Positions 26,385 through 34,618 of a stretch of DNA of 64,000 nt are shown here, one piece after another. The DNA lies in NCBI RefSeq assembly GCF_028368935.1, contig NZ_JAQNDK010000006.1, forward strand, positions 789,501-853,500, given 5' to 3'. The position numbers and the translations under genes are program-made. Within the stretch, counting starts at the first letter, position 1; each line of letters begins with the position of its first letter. Source of the DNA: Sorangium aterium (lineage in GTDB: Bacteria; Myxococcota_A; Polyangia; Polyangiales; Polyangiaceae). The notes below the pieces were generated by a model. The model saw only the letters and a program-made list of their open reading frames with translations. It made no database searches and had not been told where the DNA came from.

Positions 26385-26469
26385 GGCGCCCGGCGCGAGG
26401 GGGGCCCGCGGGCCGGCCCGAGGTCGTGGCGCCCTGGTCGCCGTCACCCTGCGAAGGGAGCGAGTGCGC

Positions 26470-26850
26470 ATGACGATGAGCCGTCCCAGCAAGCGCATCC
26501 TGATCGTCGATGACGACGCCGCGATTCGCCGTACCTTGAGCGAGCTCCTGGAAGAGGAGGGATATGCCGTCGCCTGCGCCGCGAACGGGCGCGAGGCCCT
26601 GGCAACCCTGCGGGACGATCCCTCGTCCATCGCGCTCGTCCTGCTCGACCTGATGATGCCGGTCATGGATGGGTTCCAGTTTCGCGCCGAGCAGAAGCGC
26701 GACCCGACGCTCGCCGCCACGCCCACCGTGGTGATGACCGCGCGCGGCGCGACGGAGCGCGCCGGCATCGACGCGGACGCGATCCTCAGCAAGCCGTTCG
26801 ATGTGCTGAAGCTGATGGACACCATCGAGCGGAGCTTCCGGAGGGAGTGA
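26470..26850 (+). CDS. Single-domain response regulator (receiver)
   Basis: A 126-residue CheY-like receiver: acidic pair DDD in ILIVDDDAA, phospho-acceptor Asp in VLLDLMMPVMDG (residue about 55), Thr in VVMTARG and the conserved Lys in ILSKPFD. It has no output domain, so it probably works by protein contact or as a relay partner of the hybrid kinase just upstream. A ribosome-binding site (GAAGGGAG) ends about 10 bases before the ATG at 26470; a GTG two codons upstream and an ATG two codons downstream are alternatives. Confidence 0.87.
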   Translation: MTMSRPSKRILIVDDDAAIRRTLSELLEEEGYAVACAANGREALATLRDDPSSIALVLLDLMMPVMDGFQFRAEQKRDPTLAATPTVVMTARGATERAGIDADAILSKPFDVLKLMDTIERSFRRE

Positions 26851-26947
26851 TCCGGCGGCGCGCGGCGTGCGGGCTGGAAACTTCACGCCTTTCATGATTG
26901 GCCGGGAGCTGGCCGGCTCGCTCGAACCTGAGTCCGTCGGCCCGCAG

Positions 26948-27946
26948 TCATGGCTGGCTCTTGGTCAGGCCGATGGCGCCCTTCACCACCTTGCCGAGCT
27001 CGGCGACGGGGCCGCGCCCCCAGTAGTGAAAGAAGAGGATGCGCGGCTCTTCGCCGATCATATGATGGTGGATCGCCACGATATTGATCTTGCCCGCGCG
27101 GAGCGCCTTCAGGACGGGCTGGAGCTCGTCCTCGGTGACCGCGAAGTCGCCGTCGACGACGGCATTGTCATCCGTGCCTGCGAATGCGGCCCACGTGTTC
27201 ACGCCCATCGCCTTGCCGATCTTACAGCCGCAGTCGGCGACGGCGGCCGGTCGGCCGATCACCGCCTTGGCCATGCCGTCCTTGGCGGTGACCTTGACCC
27301 CGAGCGCCGCCTCCACCTTGGCCGGGTCGATGGTGCTCTTGGCCGGAATGGCCGGCCCCTCGAAGCGCTCGCGCGGCTTCGGCGCCTTCTGCCGGATGGC
27401 CCGCGCCGCGTCCAAGGCAGCGCGTACGCCCTTGCCGAGAGCGTCCAGCTTGCCCTCGCCGCCGATGTGCATGAAGTAGACCTTGGGCCGGTCAAAGAAG
27501 AAGTGGTTGTGGAGCGCGGTGACCTCGAGCCCGGCATCGAAGGCGGCGCTCATGGCGTCGTTCACCTCGTCCTCGAACATGACGAGATCGCCCATCACCA
27601 TGGCCTCGACGCCCGGCTTGTGGCCGGGGGTGAACCCGGCCCACGAGGTGAGGCCCATGAACGGCGGCATGGCCCAGCCATCCACCTCGACCTTGACGTC
27701 GTTCCGGGGGAACGAGACCTTCACGACGCCTTCGGTGACCTCCGCCTTGCCCCCCGTGGACGCCTCGACGACCGCGGGATCCACGGTGGCCGGGGCGGCC
27801 ACCGGTGCCTGAGCGGCGGAATCGGCTGCAGGCGGAGCGGCGGGGCGCGCGACCGCCGGCGGCTCGGCCGAGGGCGCCGGGGATGCGTTGCTACAGCCGA
27901 GCGCCATCAGCGCGGCGAGACCGAGCCAATCAACGATGTTCCTCAT
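26948..27946 (-). CDS. DUF1259 (LppY/LpqO-type) lipoprotein, two repeats
   Basis: A 332-residue lipoprotein: signal MRNIVDWLGLAALMALGC, an Ala/Pro-rich spacer, then two DUF1259 domains in tandem. The first carries LTSWAGF, DLVMFEDEVNDAM and ALHNHFFFDRPKVYFMHI. The second carries VNTWAAFAGTDD, DFAVTEDELQPVL and AIHHHMIGEEPRILFFHYWG. The His-rich motifs (HNHFF, HHHM, FMH, FFH) suggest metal binding, but no reaction is established for the family. GAGGAG lies upstream of the ATG at 27946. It follows the DUF1080-like remnant on the same strand, with which it may once have formed an operon. Confidence 0.85.
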   Translation of the reverse strand: MRNIVDWLGLAALMALGCSNASPAPSAEPPAVARPAAPPAADSAAQAPVAAPATVDPAVVEASTGGKAEVTEGVVKVSFPRNDVKVEVDGWAMPPFMGLTSWAGFTPGHKPGVEAMVMGDLVMFEDEVNDAMSAAFDAGLEVTALHNHFFFDRPKVYFMHIGGEGKLDALGKGVRAALDAARAIRQKAPKPRERFEGPAIPAKSTIDPAKVEAALGVKVTAKDGMAKAVIGRPAAVADCGCKIGKAMGVNTWAAFAGTDDNAVVDGDFAVTEDELQPVLKALRAGKINIVAIHHHMIGEEPRILFFHYWGRGPVAELGKVVKGAIGLTKSQP

Positions 27947-27984
27947 CGCTTCTTCTCCTCTTGTCCAAGCGGCATCTTCTCAGA

Positions 27985-28386
27985 TCAGAGCGGCATGATG
28001 GTGAGGTCGTCAAAGTACGTGACCGAGTCCGCCTTGGTCCAAACACCGACCTTCCCCGGCGCAGTGAACGTCCGGTCCGTCGCGTCGATGATCTGGCTCC
28101 CGCCCCAGTGAACCTGGATCCGGTCCTCGCGGGCATCTACCCGCAGCTCGTGCCAGTTGCCAGTCACCGCGCCACTCCAGCTGGCGATCTGCGTCCGGCG
28201 TCCGTCCTTGACATGATAGAGCCGCACATTGCCCTCGAGCGCGTTCGCACGGGTGATGTAGTAGTTGTTCTCGTCGAGATAGCGGAAGACGAGGCCACAT
28301 GCCTGGTCCACCTTGCCGGAAACGGCCTTGCACCTGACCGGGGCCCGGAGGTCGCGGATCGTGGGCTCATCGGCGACGGCCGCGGA
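27985..28386 (-). pseudogene. 5'-truncated DUF1080-like (LamG/concanavalin-fold) gene remnant
   Basis: The frame encodes the C-terminal part of a DUF1080-like domain: TIRDLRAPVRCKAVSGKVDQ, then GLVFRYLDENNYYITRANAL, DGRRTQIASWSG and TADSVTYFDDL-like strands, ending TIMPL and a stop at 27985. Homologous similarity continues upstream of the only possible internal start (a GTG at about 28311) and then stops at an in-frame TAG at 28387-28389. The signal peptide and the first roughly 80-100 residues of such proteins are missing. The sequence beyond the break belongs to a different gene fragment, so this is a truncation, not a short gene. Confidence 0.72.
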
Positions 28387-28609
28387 CTACCTTTCATCGC
28401 TCGGTCTCAGCCCGCTCCAGATCGGGACCCGCTCAGGGTTCGCGCTGTATGCGGCTGTCGCGGTCGCAGTCGGCATTCTCTACTGCGAGCTCTCGCCCGC
28501 GCTCGATCAGCACACGCAGACCGCGAAGGCCGCGCCTCTCCTGCGGTCGCGCCGGATCGTCTTCCGGCTCGCGGCGCTGTTCAGCCTCGACTCGTTCGGC
28601 GGCGGGTTC
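28385..28609 (+). pseudogene. MFS transporter remnant with internal deletion
   Basis: In one plus-strand frame the sequence reads DYLSSLGLSPLQIG, which looks like the first-helix loop of an MFS permease, then jumps directly to SGFALYAAVAVAVGILYCEL and SRRIVFRLAALFSLDSFGGG, which belong near the middle of such transporters. It ends abruptly at 28609 (GGGF), where minus-strand ChrB sequence begins. About 150 residues are missing inside, and everything after the central FGGGF motif is lost. There is no start codon with a ribosome-binding site. Assignment is by recognition of the MFS sequence pattern. Confidence 0.6.
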
Positions 28610-28903
28610 AGGAGCACCTCGAACGTGCAGCGGTCGCCTTCGTGGGTGAACTCGGCCTCGAACATGTCGAAGCGAAGCTCGCCCGGCTCCGGCGAGTAAC
28701 CCTTGCCGCTCACGAACTTGAAGCACGCCTCCGGATCGAGGAAGCGCCGGATGATCCACGCGCTCGCGATGCGGTCGACGTGGATGTTCTTGCGGGTGAC
28801 CCACGTACGGCCGCGTACCTCGGCGGCCAGCACGGCCGGCCGACGCTTCGTCGACGCCCAGACGTTGCAGATGGCGTCCGATCTTCACACGGAGGTATGC
28901 GGG
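28610..28903 (-). pseudogene. ChrB-like chromate-resistance gene remnant with internal and 3' deletions
   Basis: Two pieces of a ChrB-domain protein lie in order on the minus strand in different frames. An N-terminal piece, AYLRVKIGRHLQRLG (about 28900-28856), is followed after a deletion and frame change by the C-terminal-domain piece GRTWVTRKNIHVDRIASAW, then IIRRFLDPEACFKFV, FDMFEAEFTHEGDRCTFEVL. The similarity stops at 28610, exactly where the MFS remnant ends. ChrB-type proteins regulate or assist chromate resistance; this copy lacks its central region and its end and cannot be functional. Confidence 0.65.
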
Positions 28904-28957
28904 CTTGGGCGGTTCTCGTGCCGGTGGTGGAGGTCAGGCACGTGAGGGGGGTTGTGC

Positions 28958-31498
28958 CTAGGCGCCCGCCCTCGAGCCGCACATGGTCGTGAGCACCGCG
29001 AGCAGCTCCGCCGGTTCGATGGGCTTCGGGACATGGGTGGTGAACCCTGCCCGCAATGCGCGCATGCGATCCTCCGTGCGCGCATAGGCGGTGAGCGCGA
29101 TCGCCGGGGTCCGCCCCCCGCTCGCCGCCGGGAGCGCGCGGATCTTGCGGATCAGCGCGTAGCCGTCCTCGCCGGGCATCGCGACGTCGGACACGAGCAC
29201 GTCGGGCTGCAGCGCCTTCACAGCGAGCAGCGCCTCGGCCGCGGACGAGACGGCCGTCACGCGCGCGCCGCACTGCTCGAGCATCGTGACGAGGAGCTCG
29301 CGCGTGTCGTCCTCGTCCTCGACCACGAGCACGTTCAGCGCCGCGAGCTCCGGCGGGCGGTCGCTCCCGGCAGAGACGCTCGGCAGCAGCGCCAGCCGGC
29401 GCCCTCGGCCCTGGCTCGGCGGCGCCGCGAGCGGCAGCTGGACGACGAACGTGGCGCCCTGACCCTCCCCGTCGCTCAGCGCGTGAGCCGTGCCGCCGTG
29501 CATCTCCACGAGGCTCTTCACGATCGTGAGCCCGAGGCCCAGGCCGCCGTGCCTGCGGGTCGTGCCGCTCTCGGCCTGCCGGAACTGCTCGAACACGTAC
29601 GGCAAGAACGCGGGCTCGATGCCCTGGCCGGTGTCGGACACGGTGATCTCGGCGGACCCGTCGGCGCGATCGAGCCGGATGCGCACCACCCCGCCGCGCG
29701 GCGTGAACTTCACCGCGTTGTTGAGCAGGTTCCAGACGACCTGCTGCAGCCGGCCCGCGTCGCCCGCGACGGCGCCCACGCCGGGCTCGATCAGCGGCAG
29801 GAGCCGCACCCCCTTGGCGTCGGCCGCCGGCCGCACGACCTCGAGGGCGGCGTCGATCACGGGCACGAGCTCGATCGGATGGACGTCCAGCCGGAGCTTG
29901 CCGGCCATGATGCGCGAGATGTCGAGCAGATCGTCGATGAGCTGCGCCTGCGCCTGGGCGTTGCGCTCCACCGTCTCCAGCGCCTTGTCGCGGCGCTCCT
30001 CGGCGAGCTTGCCGGTGCGCAGCATCCGGATCCAGCCGAGGACCGCCGTGAGCGGCGTGCGGAGCTCGTGGCTCATCGTCGCCAGGAACTCGTCCTTCAG
30101 GTGGCTGGCGGCCTCGGCCTCCCGACGGGCGGACTGCGCCGCGGCGAGCAGGTCTTGCCGCTCCTCCTCCGCGCGCTTCCGCGCCGTGATGTCGAAGAAC
30201 GAGGAGACGACGCCGGCCACGGAGCCGTTCGCGCCGCGGAGCGGCTGCGCGTTCACCGAGAGCCACACGATCGAGCCGCCCGGCCGCTCCAGCCCGAGCA
30301 GGACGCCCGACTGAGGCGCGCCCGTCCGGAGCGCGATCTGCGAGGGGACCATCTCGAAAGGGAAGGGCGAGCCGTCCTCGCGGACGAGCCTGCACGACGG
30401 GCCCGGCATCGTGGACCCGACGAGCTGGGCCATGGGCAGGCCGAGGATCCGCTCGGCGCTCGCGTTCGCGGTGCGGATGACGCCGCGCTCGTCCTCGAGC
30501 GTGATGCCCTCCTCGAGCGCGCTGATGATCACGCGATAGCGCTCCTCGCTGTCCCGGAGCGCCCGCTCCGCCTCGATCGCGTCGGTCTCGTCGCGCGTGA
30601 TCAGCACGGCGCCCGCGGGCGAGCCGTCGGCGTGCCGGAGCGGCGACGCCGTCCCGGCGAGGGCGCGGATCGAGCCGTCCGGGCGCGTCACGAGCCAGCG
30701 CGCGTTCTCGACCTTTTCGCCCAGGAGCGCGCGGTGGAGCGGGTCCTCGTCGGGGCGCAGCGGCCGGCCGTCCAGCGCGAGCAGCCCGCGGGGCCGGAGC
30801 GACTCGATCGCGTCGCTCGCGTCGCGCTCGTACACCCCGTGCTGCCGCTGGGCCTCGCCGTTGCAGATCCGGAGCGCCCCGCGCGCGTCCGCGGCCATGA
30901 TGCCGTCGCCGCTCTGCTCGATGAGCGCGCGCAGCAGATCGCGCTCCACCGCCGCGACCCGCTCGGCCCGCTCGGCCCGCTCGCGGAGCCGCTTCGAGCG
31001 GAGGAGCGCGCCGACGCGCGCCGACAGCGCGGCCGCCGGGCAGGGCTTGACCACGTAGTCGTCGGCGCCCGCGGTGAGCCCCTCGACGAGGTCCTCCTCC
31101 TGCCCGGCCACGGTCAGGATGAGGATCGGGAGCCCGACCGTGGCGGGGCGCGACCGCAAGAGGCCGCAGATCTCGGTGCCGGACATGGCCGGCATCACCT
31201 GGTCGAGCACGAGGACGTCCGGCAGATCGCCGCCCGCCACGCGCTCGAGCATCGCGGCGGCGTCCGTGAAGAGTTGGACCTCGTACCCCGGCGCGAGGGC
31301 GCGCGCGGCCATCTCGGCCTCCAGCAACGAATCGTCGAGGATCCACACCACCCCGCGCTGCGCGTGCTCGCTCGGCGGAGGCTCCATGCCCACCTCCCGG
31401 ACGCCTCGCCCCGCGGCCGGCGCCGGGCGCCGGGGCGGGCCGTTCGCATCGCGCGCGGCGTCGGCGAGCACGAAGTCCATCGTCATTGGCCGATTCAT
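28958..31498 (-). CDS. Hybrid histidine kinase: REC-PAS-PAS-HisKA-HATPase-REC
   Basis: An 846-residue soluble sensor kinase. The ATG at 31498 is 4-5 bases after CCTGGAG; longer in-frame extensions are low-complexity. Domains: N-terminal receiver (VVWILDDSLLEAEMA, acceptor Asp about 97 in DVLVLDQVMPAMSG, Lys in VVKPCPAAAL); coiled-coil; PAS (about 170-290, ALIEQSGDGIMAADARGALR); second PAS (about 300-420); HisKA with MSHELRTPL (His about 476); HATPase (NLLNNAVKF, GLGLGLTI); and C-terminal receiver (VLVVEDEDD, Asp about 770 in LVSDVAMPGEDGYAL). The first receiver lets another kinase control it, and the last one relays onward. It is divergent from the chemosensory operon. Confidence 0.88.
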   Translation of the reverse strand: MNRPMTMDFVLADAARDANGPPRRPAPAAGRGVREVGMEPPPSEHAQRGVVWILDDSLLEAEMAARALAPGYEVQLFTDAAAMLERVAGGDLPDVLVLDQVMPAMSGTEICGLLRSRPATVGLPILILTVAGQEEDLVEGLTAGADDYVVKPCPAAALSARVGALLRSKRLRERAERAERVAAVERDLLRALIEQSGDGIMAADARGALRICNGEAQRQHGVYERDASDAIESLRPRGLLALDGRPLRPDEDPLHRALLGEKVENARWLVTRPDGSIRALAGTASPLRHADGSPAGAVLITRDETDAIEAERALRDSEERYRVIISALEEGITLEDERGVIRTANASAERILGLPMAQLVGSTMPGPSCRLVREDGSPFPFEMVPSQIALRTGAPQSGVLLGLERPGGSIVWLSVNAQPLRGANGSVAGVVSSFFDITARKRAEEERQDLLAAAQSARREAEAASHLKDEFLATMSHELRTPLTAVLGWIRMLRTGKLAEERRDKALETVERNAQAQAQLIDDLLDISRIMAGKLRLDVHPIELVPVIDAALEVVRPAADAKGVRLLPLIEPGVGAVAGDAGRLQQVVWNLLNNAVKFTPRGGVVRIRLDRADGSAEITVSDTGQGIEPAFLPYVFEQFRQAESGTTRRHGGLGLGLTIVKSLVEMHGGTAHALSDGEGQGATFVVQLPLAAPPSQGRGRRLALLPSVSAGSDRPPELAALNVLVVEDEDDTRELLVTMLEQCGARVTAVSSAAEALLAVKALQPDVLVSDVAMPGEDGYALIRKIRALPAASGGRTPAIALTAYARTEDRMRALRAGFTTHVPKPIEPAELLAVLTTMCGSRAGA

Positions 31499-32063
31499 GG
31501 TTCTCCAGGAGCAGCAGGGGCCGCGAGGCGTATCGCTAGAGGGCGGCGCCTCTCGGGGCGGGACGGGGCACGGAGACGCGTTGGTTCCGCAAGCGTCTTT
31601 ACCGCCCAGTCTCATCTGAGTGAGAGCCTGCGACGATGCAAGCGTAATACGATGAAAGACGCCCTGTCGCTCTCTTCTGGTTGCGTCTGGTCGCGTTCGG
31701 TCGCGTTTGGCGGCGTGGCGTCCGGTCGCGGCAGGTTGCGCCAGGTTGCTTCTGGTCATTGCGCCCCGCATCACGCGGCGGTCGCCGGTTTCCATCGACC
31801 GCTGTCATGGCGTTCGCGCGCCTGCCGACGTTCGCCGGCGCACTGGCGCTCCTCGGGGGAGCCCGGACTCGTCAGCGAGCACAGCAGACCTCGCCGGCGC
31901 CGGCTCGACGCGCAGGCAGCGCACGGCCGGCGCGCTGCTCGCGCGAGCCGGGGAACCGGAGCTCGGGGCGGGGCTGACGGGAGTTCCCTGATTCTCCCAC
32001 GGACGCACAGGCGCGATTGACACCTCGTGTTCGGAAAGGCTATTCCCTCGACCGAGCACCGCT
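31499..32063. other. 565-bp divergent intergenic region with decamer repeats
   Basis: Between the hybrid kinase and the chemosensory operon. No gene-like frame is seen. It holds the decamer array at 31676-31760. The promoter of the chemosensory operon should lie toward its right end, but I see no clear -35/-10 pair and no strong ribosome-binding site before the GTG at 32064. Confidence 0.55.
31676..31760. repeat. Degenerate 10-bp tandem repeats TYYGGTYGCG
   Basis: Successive units are TCTGGTTGCG, TCTGGTCGCG, TTCGGTCGCG, TTTGGCGGCG, a 5-base spacer, TCCGGTCGCG, GCAGGTTGCG, CCAGGTTGCT and TCTGGTCATT. The period is close to one helical turn, so a protein binding each unit would bind one DNA face. 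Confidence 0.75.
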
Positions 32064-32447
32064 GTGGCAGAGATCCTCGTCGTCGATGACAGCAGGGTGA
32101 TGCGTGAGATGGTGGTGGCCTGCCTGCGGGCAGAGCAGCACGGGTTCGCGCACGCGGCGAGCGGGCTCGAGGCGATTGAGACGCTCTCGCTCAGGCCGTT
32201 CGATCTCGTGGTGCTCGACCTGAATATGCCCGATATCGGGGGACTCGAGGTGATCGAGTTCATCCGGGGTCAAGACAGGCTGCGGAGCCTGCCGATCCTG
32301 GTGGTGACGACCCGGGGTGATGAGGAGTCTCGTGCCCGCACGCTCGCCGCGGGGGCGTCCGAGTTCATGACGAAGCCCTTCACTCCTGACGCCATCCTGG
32401 CCAGCGTGCGCGCGCTCCTGCAGGACGGCGTCGCCGGCGCCGGATGA
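32064..32447 (+). CDS. cheY: CheY-like response regulator of the chemosensory operon
   Basis: A 127-residue receiver: EILVVDDSRVMRE with the acidic pair, acceptor Asp in VVLDLNMPDIGG (residue about 54), Thr-Thr in VVTTRGD and Lys in FMTKPFTP. The start is a GTG (32064). The stop overlaps the cheA start by 4 bases (ATGA), so the two are translationally coupled and this receiver is the obvious phosphorylation target of that kinase. There is no DNA-binding or enzymatic output domain, so output is by protein contact. Confidence 0.9.
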   Translation: MAEILVVDDSRVMREMVVACLRAEQHGFAHAASGLEAIETLSLRPFDLVVLDLNMPDIGGLEVIEFIRGQDRLRSLPILVVTTRGDEESRARTLAAGASEFMTKPFTPDAILASVRALLQDGVAGAG

Positions 32448-34618
32448 CCGGCGCGCTCGATGTGAACGAGTTCGTGGCCGGCTACCTCGTCGAGGTGGAA
32501 GAGCACCTCTCCGCGTCGACGGCCAACCTCCTCGCCGTCGAGGCGGCCCTCCGCGCCGGCGAGTCGAGCCCCAGGCCGATCCGGGAGCTCTTCCGCGCCC
32601 TCCACACCATCAAGGGCCTCTCCGCCATGGTCGGCGTGGAGCCGATCGTGGATCTCGCCCACGGGATGGAGACCGTGCTCCGGGCGGCGGACCGGGCGGC
32701 CGGGAGCCTCTCCGGCTCGTCGATCGAGGTGCTGCTCCGCGGGCTCCGGTCCATCGAGGAGCGGGCCCGGGCCCTCGCCGAGGGCAAGCCGGTGCTGCCG
32801 GCGGCGCCGGAGCTCCTCGCCGCGCTCACCGCGCTCGATCTCGCCGCCGCGCCGTCGCCGCCCGTGCCGACGATCGGCGCCGATCCCGAGATCCTCGCGA
32901 AGCTCGGGCCCGGCGAGCGGGTGCAGCTCGCGCAGGGCGTGGCCGGCGGGCGGCGCGCGCTGCGGGTCGACTTCACCCCCTCGCCGGCGCGCACCGCCGA
33001 GGGGGTGAACATCACGACCGTCCGCGAGCGCGTCGGCAAGCTCGCCGAGATCGTCAAGGTCGTCCCGCTCTCGGTGCCGGCCAGCGATGGGGCGCCGGGC
33101 GGCATCGTCTTCGCGCTCCTCGTCCTCACGAGCGCGCCCGACGAGGAGGTCGCGCGCGCGGCGGCGGCGGACGGCGTCCGCGCGCTCACGGTGGAGCCCG
33201 CCGTCCCGCCGGCCGTCGCGGCCCTGGCGGAGCGCGAGCCGGACGAGCCGGTGGACCGGGAGCCCCAGCTCCGAGGCGTCGTCCGCGTCGAGGTGGCGCG
33301 CCTCGACGACGCGCTCGACAAGCTGTCGGCGCTCGTCGTCACGCGGTTCCGGCTCGCGCGGGCGGCCGCCGAGCTGCGCGCCCGGGGGGTCGACACCCGC
33401 GATCTGTCGGAGATCCTGCGCGAGCACGACCGGACGCTGCGCGACCTCCGCGGCGCCATCATGCGCGCGCGCATGATCTCCGTGAAGGAGCTCCTCGAGC
33501 GCGTGCCGCTCGTCGTCCGCGGCCTCGGCCGCGCGACCGGCAAGCAGGTCCGGCTCGAGATCGACGCCGGCAAGGCCGAGCTCGACAAGGCGGTCGCGGA
33601 GCGCGTCTTCCCTGCGATCGTGCACCTGCTCCGGAACGCCGTAGATCACGCGATCGAGCCGCCCGCCGAGCGGCGGCGCCTCGGCAAGCCCGAGGAGGGC
33701 GTCGTCCGGGTCTCCTGCTTCGAGCGCTCCAGCAATCAGCTCGAGCTCAGCGTCGCCGACGACGGCCGCGGCATCGATCGCGCGCTGGTGGCGAGGCGGG
33801 CCGGCCGCCCCGCGCCCGAGAGCGACGCGGCGCTGCTCGACCTCATCACGCTCCCTGGGCTGTCGACGCTCGACCAGGCGACGAAGACCAGCGGCCGCGG
33901 GCTCGGGATGGACATCGTGCGCCGCATCGCGGTGGAGCAGCTCAGCGGCGAGCTCGCGGTGAGCACGTCGCCCGGCGCCGGCACCACCTTCACCCTCCGG
34001 ATCCCGCTCACGTTGACCATCGTGGACGCCTTCTCCTTCCTGTGCGGTGACCAGCTGTTCGTGACGCCCGTCGCGGGCGTCGAGGAGGTCGTGGAGATCG
34101 ATGCCGCCCGCATCATCCGCGGCCCGGCCCCTGGCGAAGCGCGGGGCGGGAGCATGTTGCCAGCCGCGGGCGAAGCGCGGGGCGGGAGCATGTTGCCAGC
34201 CGCGGGCGAAGCGCGCGGCGGGACGATGTTGCCAGCCGCAGGCGAAGCGCGCGGCGGGACGATGTTGCCAGCCGCGGGCGAAGCGCGCGGCGGGACGATG
34301 TTGATCGAGCGCCGTGGCGAGGTCGTGCCCCTCGTCGACCTCGGCGCCCTCTTCGAGACCGGGGCCTCGCCCGCGCGCAGGGCGCTCGTCGTCCGCCGCC
34401 ACGGCGCGCCCTTCGCGTTCGGCGTGACCCGCGTGATCGGCCAGCAAGAGGTGGTCGTGCGGCCGCTCGAGGACCCGCTCGTCAGGGTGCCGGGCGTGTC
34501 TGGCTCGACGGATCTCGGCGATGGGCGCCCCACGCTCGTCCTCGACCTCGTGACCCTCAGCGGCAGGCTCTCCGCCGGCCGCGGCGGCCGCGGCGCGCTC
34601 GTCTGGGTGGCCTCGTGA
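32444..34618 (+). CDS. cheA: CheA-type chemosensory histidine kinase with in-frame repeat in the CheW-like domain
   Basis: A 724-residue kinase. HPt domain with the phospho-His in ALHTIKG (about residue 54); a linker region; dimerisation helices (LRDLRGAIMRARMISVKELL); ATPase domain with N-box HLLRNAVDHAIE (about 395), DDGRGID and GRGLGMDIV; and a C-terminal CheW-like regulatory domain (about 524-724). Inside that domain, between VEIDAARIIRG and the ERRGEVVPLVDL strand, lie five copies of a 12-residue unit AGEARGGTMLPA, an unusual insertion in a conserved coupling fold. It overlaps cheY (ATGA) and cheW (GTGA). It should autophosphorylate on the HPt and pass phosphate to the adjacent CheY and CheB. 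Confidence 0.92.
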   Translation: MTGALDVNEFVAGYLVEVEEHLSASTANLLAVEAALRAGESSPRPIRELFRALHTIKGLSAMVGVEPIVDLAHGMETVLRAADRAAGSLSGSSIEVLLRGLRSIEERARALAEGKPVLPAAPELLAALTALDLAAAPSPPVPTIGADPEILAKLGPGERVQLAQGVAGGRRALRVDFTPSPARTAEGVNITTVRERVGKLAEIVKVVPLSVPASDGAPGGIVFALLVLTSAPDEEVARAAAADGVRALTVEPAVPPAVAALAEREPDEPVDREPQLRGVVRVEVARLDDALDKLSALVVTRFRLARAAAELRARGVDTRDLSEILREHDRTLRDLRGAIMRARMISVKELLERVPLVVRGLGRATGKQVRLEIDAGKAELDKAVAERVFPAIVHLLRNAVDHAIEPPAERRRLGKPEEGVVRVSCFERSSNQLELSVADDGRGIDRALVARRAGRPAPESDAALLDLITLPGLSTLDQATKTSGRGLGMDIVRRIAVEQLSGELAVSTSPGAGTTFTLRIPLTLTIVDAFSFLCGDQLFVTPVAGVEEVVEIDAARIIRGPAPGEARGGSMLPAAGEARGGSMLPAAGEARGGTMLPAAGEARGGTMLPAAGEARGGTMLIERRGEVVPLVDLGALFETGASPARRALVVRRHGAPFAFGVTRVIGQQEVVVRPLEDPLVRVPGVSGSTDLGDGRPTLVLDLVTLSGRLSAGRGGRGALVWVAS
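34133..34303 (+). repeat. 36-bp tandem repeat inside cheA, five copies
   Basis: Units start at 34133, 34169, 34205, 34241 and 34277, exactly 36 bp apart; the last is partial. The unit begins GGCGAAGCGCG and contains ATGTTGCCAGCCGC. Copies differ at only a few positions (AGC/ACG for Ser/Thr, G/A in the Ala codon), so the array is recent. Being a multiple of 3, changes in copy number keep the frame. Confidence 0.9.

Follow-up and report, generated by a model that had tools for sequence, protein, structure and literature searches.

The name chrL comes from Arthrobacter FB24: there, chromate induces the gene, and deleting it reduces chromate resistance (PMC2751784, in the text available). Its product is an LppY/LpqO lipoprotein, and in Cupriavidus neocaledonicus STM 6070 the operon chrB2A2CF-cep-chrL contains both cep, encoding a ConA-like protein, and chrL, encoding such a lipoprotein (PMC7060636, in the text available). 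On the plasmid pMOL28 of Cupriavidus metallidurans CH34, chrI is located on one strand. The other strand carries genes for ChrB, a chromate transporter, a superoxide dismutase, chrE, a ChrB-domain protein, two small genes, and genes for an MFS transporter and a DUF1259 protein. Byssovorax is a myxobacterium. A Byssovorax MAG contains a chrA-DUF1259-chrB locus (L126, L007), and neither an MFS gene of the family described below nor a ConA-like gene was detected on its 17.9 kb contig.

The window analyzed here is a stretch of 64,000 nucleotides from Sorangium aterium (NZ_JAQNDK010000006.1, positions 789,501 to 853,500). The block under study occupies an interior position on a contig of 1.07 Mb, in a genome of 13.47 Mb. 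From 26464, the gene order is response regulator (+), DUF1259 gene (-, intact), ConA-like remnant (-), MFS remnant (+), ChrB remnant (-) and histidine kinase (-); the three remnants occupy 27985-28912 (Table 1). The block is poorer in G+C (67.5%) than its flanks (72.9%). Very probably, the block is a decayed chr (chromate-resistance) operon, which was acquired in this lineage between two genes of two-component systems and then decayed, with the chrL-like DUF1259 gene as its survivor. Neither an insertion sequence nor an integrase is seen on reading the ORFs between the flanks. In the available parts of the literature on DUF1259, chrL/LppY, chrB/chrA/MFS or Sorangium and chromate, this locus is not named. 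In a putatively CheA-like ORF beyond the kinase gene (32444-34618), GEARGG(S/T)ML occurs as a tandem array of five copies with a spacing of 12 residues.

Table 1. Features of the block and its flanks, in window coordinates
Feature	Position	Strand	Evidence or remark
Response-regulator gene, left flank	26464..26850	+	surrounding DNA 81-87% identical to congeners
Block between the flanking genes	26851..28957		no counterpart in 4/5 congeners
DUF1259 (LppY/LpqO, chrL-like) lipoprotein gene, intact, 332 aa	26948..27946	-	PF07485, E 1.1e-72
ConA-like (DUF1080-like) gene without its 5' third	27985..28384	-	70% identity to L008 protein; model positions ~58-195/196
MFS piece 1 (near TM1-TM2)	28385..28426	+	ungapped profile 16.2-17.3 bits, 0/2000 shuffles
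Junction inside MFS, ~129 codons gone, frame kept	28427..28432		profile scan; pMOL28 MFS alignment
MFS piece 2 (~TM6, loop, start of TM7)	28430..28609	+	model positions ~168-228; 46% identity to pMOL28 MFS
MFS/ChrB junction, both genes cut before their 3' ends	28609..28610		MFS and ChrB model alignments
ChrB piece 2 (first half of ChrB_C)	28610..28854	-	PF09828 positions 1-66/132; model positions 170-247/316
Junction inside ChrB, frame changed	28855..28858		ChrB model and Byssovorax chrB comparison
ChrB piece 1 (near N-terminus, start missing)	28855..28912	-	72% identical to Byssovorax chrB at the DNA level; model positions 10-28 (E 5.7e-7)
Fifth junction, loss of the ChrB 5' end	28912..28913		~45 bases from the histidine-kinase stop codon
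Histidine-kinase gene, right flank	28958..31795	-	DNA 83-89% identical to five congeners

The larger ChrB piece matches the Pfam family ChrB_C (PF09828) with an E-value of 6.9e-26, in the first half of the profile only. Against a model built from 74 ChrB sequences, this piece scores 147.6 bits in a single minus frame; a match to the N-terminal part of the same gene is found in a different minus frame (17.7 bits, E 5.7e-7 in a six-frame translated search). The internal deletion in ChrB proposed by the sequence-only reading is thus seen as a junction, out of frame, of model positions 10-28 with 170-247. Around 97 of the 316 model positions remain. Of the N-terminal part, which corresponds to PF20229 in an intact relative, positions 10-28 alone are left. 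In comparison with Byssovorax chrB, about 400 bases are gone at the internal junction, where the linker aligns poorly. The sequence GGCG is present at both edges of the gap in Byssovorax chrB, which would fit microhomology at this junction, but a 4-base match is weak in such G+C-rich DNA. The DNA match to Byssovorax chrB stops at 28612, consistent with the proposal that the MFS and ChrB genes are cut off at the same base. At the other end, the ChrB similarity starts abruptly at 28912: the sequence before that point has no ChrB match, and a start codon is absent from the ChrB frame between the preceding stop and 28912. Four junctions had been placed nearly to the base from the sequence alone; they are located about where they were placed, and the cut 5' end of ChrB adds a fifth.

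The MFS piece hits no Pfam family at E<=1 and shows no useful NCBIfam match, and the latter applies to the block proteins in general. It scores 65.4 bits against a model of 21 sequences of its MFS family. For its beginning, taken up to 28426, the profile gives 17.3 bits at model position 26 with 13 residues and 16.2 bits at position 23 with 16 residues. With 19 residues, the score at position 21 is 15.6 bits (reached in 4/2000 shuffles), whereas none of nine placements adjoining the rest of the piece on its upstream side exceeds 3.3 bits. The internal deletion of the MFS gene, claimed from the sequence alone, is therefore well supported. The 25-residue stretch after the junction scores 29.6 bits at model position 169, and the alignment of the second piece with the pMOL28 MFS protein starts with the 28430 codon. 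Model positions ~23-38 are joined to ~168-228 in frame. What remains is ~79 of 397 model positions, or ~20% of the length, and a full-length transporter is not encoded. MAFFT and HMMER align the MFS piece as one stretch without an internal gap. The possibility that the internal deletion is an error, raised by these contiguous alignments, was dropped after the position-by-position profile scan.

The ConA-like remnant matches PF06439, of which DUF1080 is presumably the former name, with 18.5 bits, below the curated cut-off of 26.8. Its intact relative is also below the cut-off, with 21.2 bits. The name DUF1080 used in the sequence-only reading is therefore backed by a sub-threshold match only, while the claimed loss of the 5' end is confirmed: the remnant scores 229 bits against an 8-sequence model from position ~58 on, and at most 138 of the 196 positions are left. 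The L008 protein in Table 1 is encoded right after chrB. The junction with the MFS piece at ~28384 can be placed to within ~12 bases, since weak similarity continues past it in the minus-strand frame. All three remnants thus match their families by profile search, ChrB through Pfam and the other two through the models built here.

The MFS piece and the main ChrB piece are both free of internal stop codons. The third-position G+C is 0.86 in the ConA-like remnant, 0.87 in the MFS piece and 0.91 in the main ChrB piece, and 0.79 in the ChrB piece of 19 codons. The retention of this codon bias in the larger pieces fits a decay that is not old.

As claimed from the sequence alone, the DUF1259 gene is the only one left intact. 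PF07485 matches it in two stretches, its product shares 54% identity with its counterpart in the pMOL28 chr operon, and its relatives are named LppY/LpqO in some plasmid records. The block resembles the pMOL28 operon in containing the ChrB, MFS and DUF1259 families; the MFS and DUF1259 genes of the two are homologous, and in pMOL28 the MFS gene lies between chrB and DUF1259. In contrast to the block, the genes of pMOL28 are whole, chrB to DUF1259 are on one strand, and the chromate transporter, superoxide dismutase and chrE are present. In the block, the transporter is missing and the MFS gene is reversed. The Byssovorax MAG locus has the closest ChrB (82-84% identity) and the closest DUF1259 protein in the search of relatives (71-72%), but it is intact and its chrB is convergent to DUF1259. 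As in STM 6070, genes for a ConA-like exported protein and an LppY/LpqO lipoprotein are neighbors in the block, with cep likened by its description. The chrB2 of STM 6070 also appears to be inactivated; there, an insertion shifts the frame after residue 214, whereas several large parts are gone in the block (PMC7060636, in the text available).

Eight of 80 chrB loci (L008, L023, L033, L037, L045, L047, L050, and L072) have a ConA-like gene after chrB in the same orientation, and in two of them, L023 and L033, this gene is followed by DUF1259. Many other chrB loci have their ConA-like gene further away or on the other strand. On the basis of these neighbors in L023/L033, together with pMOL28, STM 6070 and chrL of FB24, the block is read as a decayed chr operon. 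No intact copy of the window's gene arrangement was found among the relatives examined. Among 11 distinct chrB loci with the MFS family, the MFS gene is downstream of chrB on the same strand in nine (L006, L014, L024, L036, L049, L057, L072, L077, and L086), as on the same strand in pMOL28, and upstream on the opposite strand in two (L012 and L056). The layout of the window, downstream and on the opposite strand, is seen in 0/11, in a survey where loci are cut at contig ends and some MFS genes were possibly missed. A small local inversion of the MFS piece is therefore likely, besides the deletions. The sequence-only reading attributed the scar to deletions; large parts are indeed missing, but the reversed strand suggests that an inversion was also involved.

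ChrB and the MFS family have no match in any of the five congeners. The distance between the regulator and kinase matches, without the block, is 85 bp in G001, 80 bp in G002, 1207 bp in G004 and 322 bp in G005. In G003, the stretch examined has a match to the kinase and none to the response regulator, and the empty site is accordingly counted in four of the five. The spacer of G004 (L122 2415-2969) contains a different ORF of 184 aa. A search among 46 genomes of the family at E<=1e-250 finds the histidine kinase in its own genome and G002 only, the other four congeners being outside this sample; the flanking site is thus not shown outside the genus. Of 59 relatives, 5 have a ChrB match and 8 a DUF1259 match, one of the latter being a weak 54-residue match in the congener G001 (E 8.1e-4); across the class, ChrB was found in 35 of 317 genomes. 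All these counts include the genome itself. The MFS piece is matched in 14 of 377 genomes of the phylum (own included), with no chr partner around seven of these, some of the stretches ending at contig ends. In G572, a member of the same family, a 46-residue C-terminal MFS fragment is located on the opposite strand upstream of an intact chrB-DUF1259-chrA operon (L172 7144-7284), and a 47-residue ConA-like match lies beyond the operon (L172 12345-12485). Decay of accessory chr genes may thus recur.

The original proposal was the loss of a metal-resistance neighborhood. The chr operon neighbors in relatives agree with this, but the absence of the block from the congeners examined suggests a decayed acquisition rather than the loss of a genus-wide locus. 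It could still be considered that the chr block was ancestral in the genus, cleanly lost in the five sampled congeners and lost only partly here. The best relatives of the DUF1259 protein belong to the same bacterial family (G008 71-72%, L187 71%, and L174 70%), which would also fit an old presence with repeated losses. Such a history is unlikely, since all five congeners would have to have lost the block, and in the four where both flanking genes are found, the 80-1207 bp between them contain no matching DNA. Insertion is probably the better explanation.

How the scar was formed is another question. A single complex rearrangement with template switching, instead of stepwise deletions, might have made several junctions and reversed the MFS gene, as five junctions lie within ~530 bases and the MFS gene is in reverse orientation relative to 9/11 chrB-MFS loci and pMOL28. 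Stepwise deletions with an inversion explain the scar equally well, however, and second copies of the scar pieces were not found in the genome, which makes this rearrangement quite improbable. An assembly or sequencing artefact is hardly credible given the interior position on the contig, the intact flanking genes and the normal codon bias of the larger pieces. There is likewise hardly any chance that the pieces still function as short genes. Separate genes for the N- and C-terminal parts of ChrB do exist in FB24 (PMC2751784, in the text available), but here the C-terminal domain itself is halved and the MFS gene has lost most of its length.

In the decayed-acquisition reading, a chr operon with chrB, a ConA-like exported-protein gene, a chrL-like DUF1259 gene and an MFS gene would have entered the lineage between two convergent two-component genes. 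Decay would have followed, probably recently and for the most part through deletions, each spanning a few hundred bases. The outcome would be the present site, with chrA absent, the ChrB, MFS and ConA-like genes in pieces, and the DUF1259 lipoprotein gene alone still encoding a whole protein. The pairing of chrA next to chrB, expected of a functional chr operon, is not seen in the block. Elsewhere in the genome, two matches to the chromate-transporter family PF02417 lie side by side on another contig, in one gene-sized stretch, which is 36% identical to Byssovorax chrA. The ChrB search found no second ChrB in the genome. Judging from gene content, inducible chromate resistance has likely been lost.

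No chr partner was detected within 9-13 kb around DUF1259 in the related genomes G015, G043 and G056, while in G050 chrA is ~6 kb from it. The three former cases hint that the lipoprotein may be useful alone. In L127, L129 and L130, DUF1259 genes are found with no chrB, chrA, MFS or ConA-like partner detected in the 9-13 kb examined. It can be speculated that one template-switching event reversed and joined the pieces and that the DUF1259 lipoprotein was recruited to a role without ChrA and ChrB, its gene being transcribed by read-through from the neighboring histidine-kinase gene, but this combination is very improbable. The scar is better regarded as an ordinary operon remnant, produced by ordinary gene decay. 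It documents the decay of an accessory chromate operon, in which a chrL-like DUF1259 gene has outlasted its partners.
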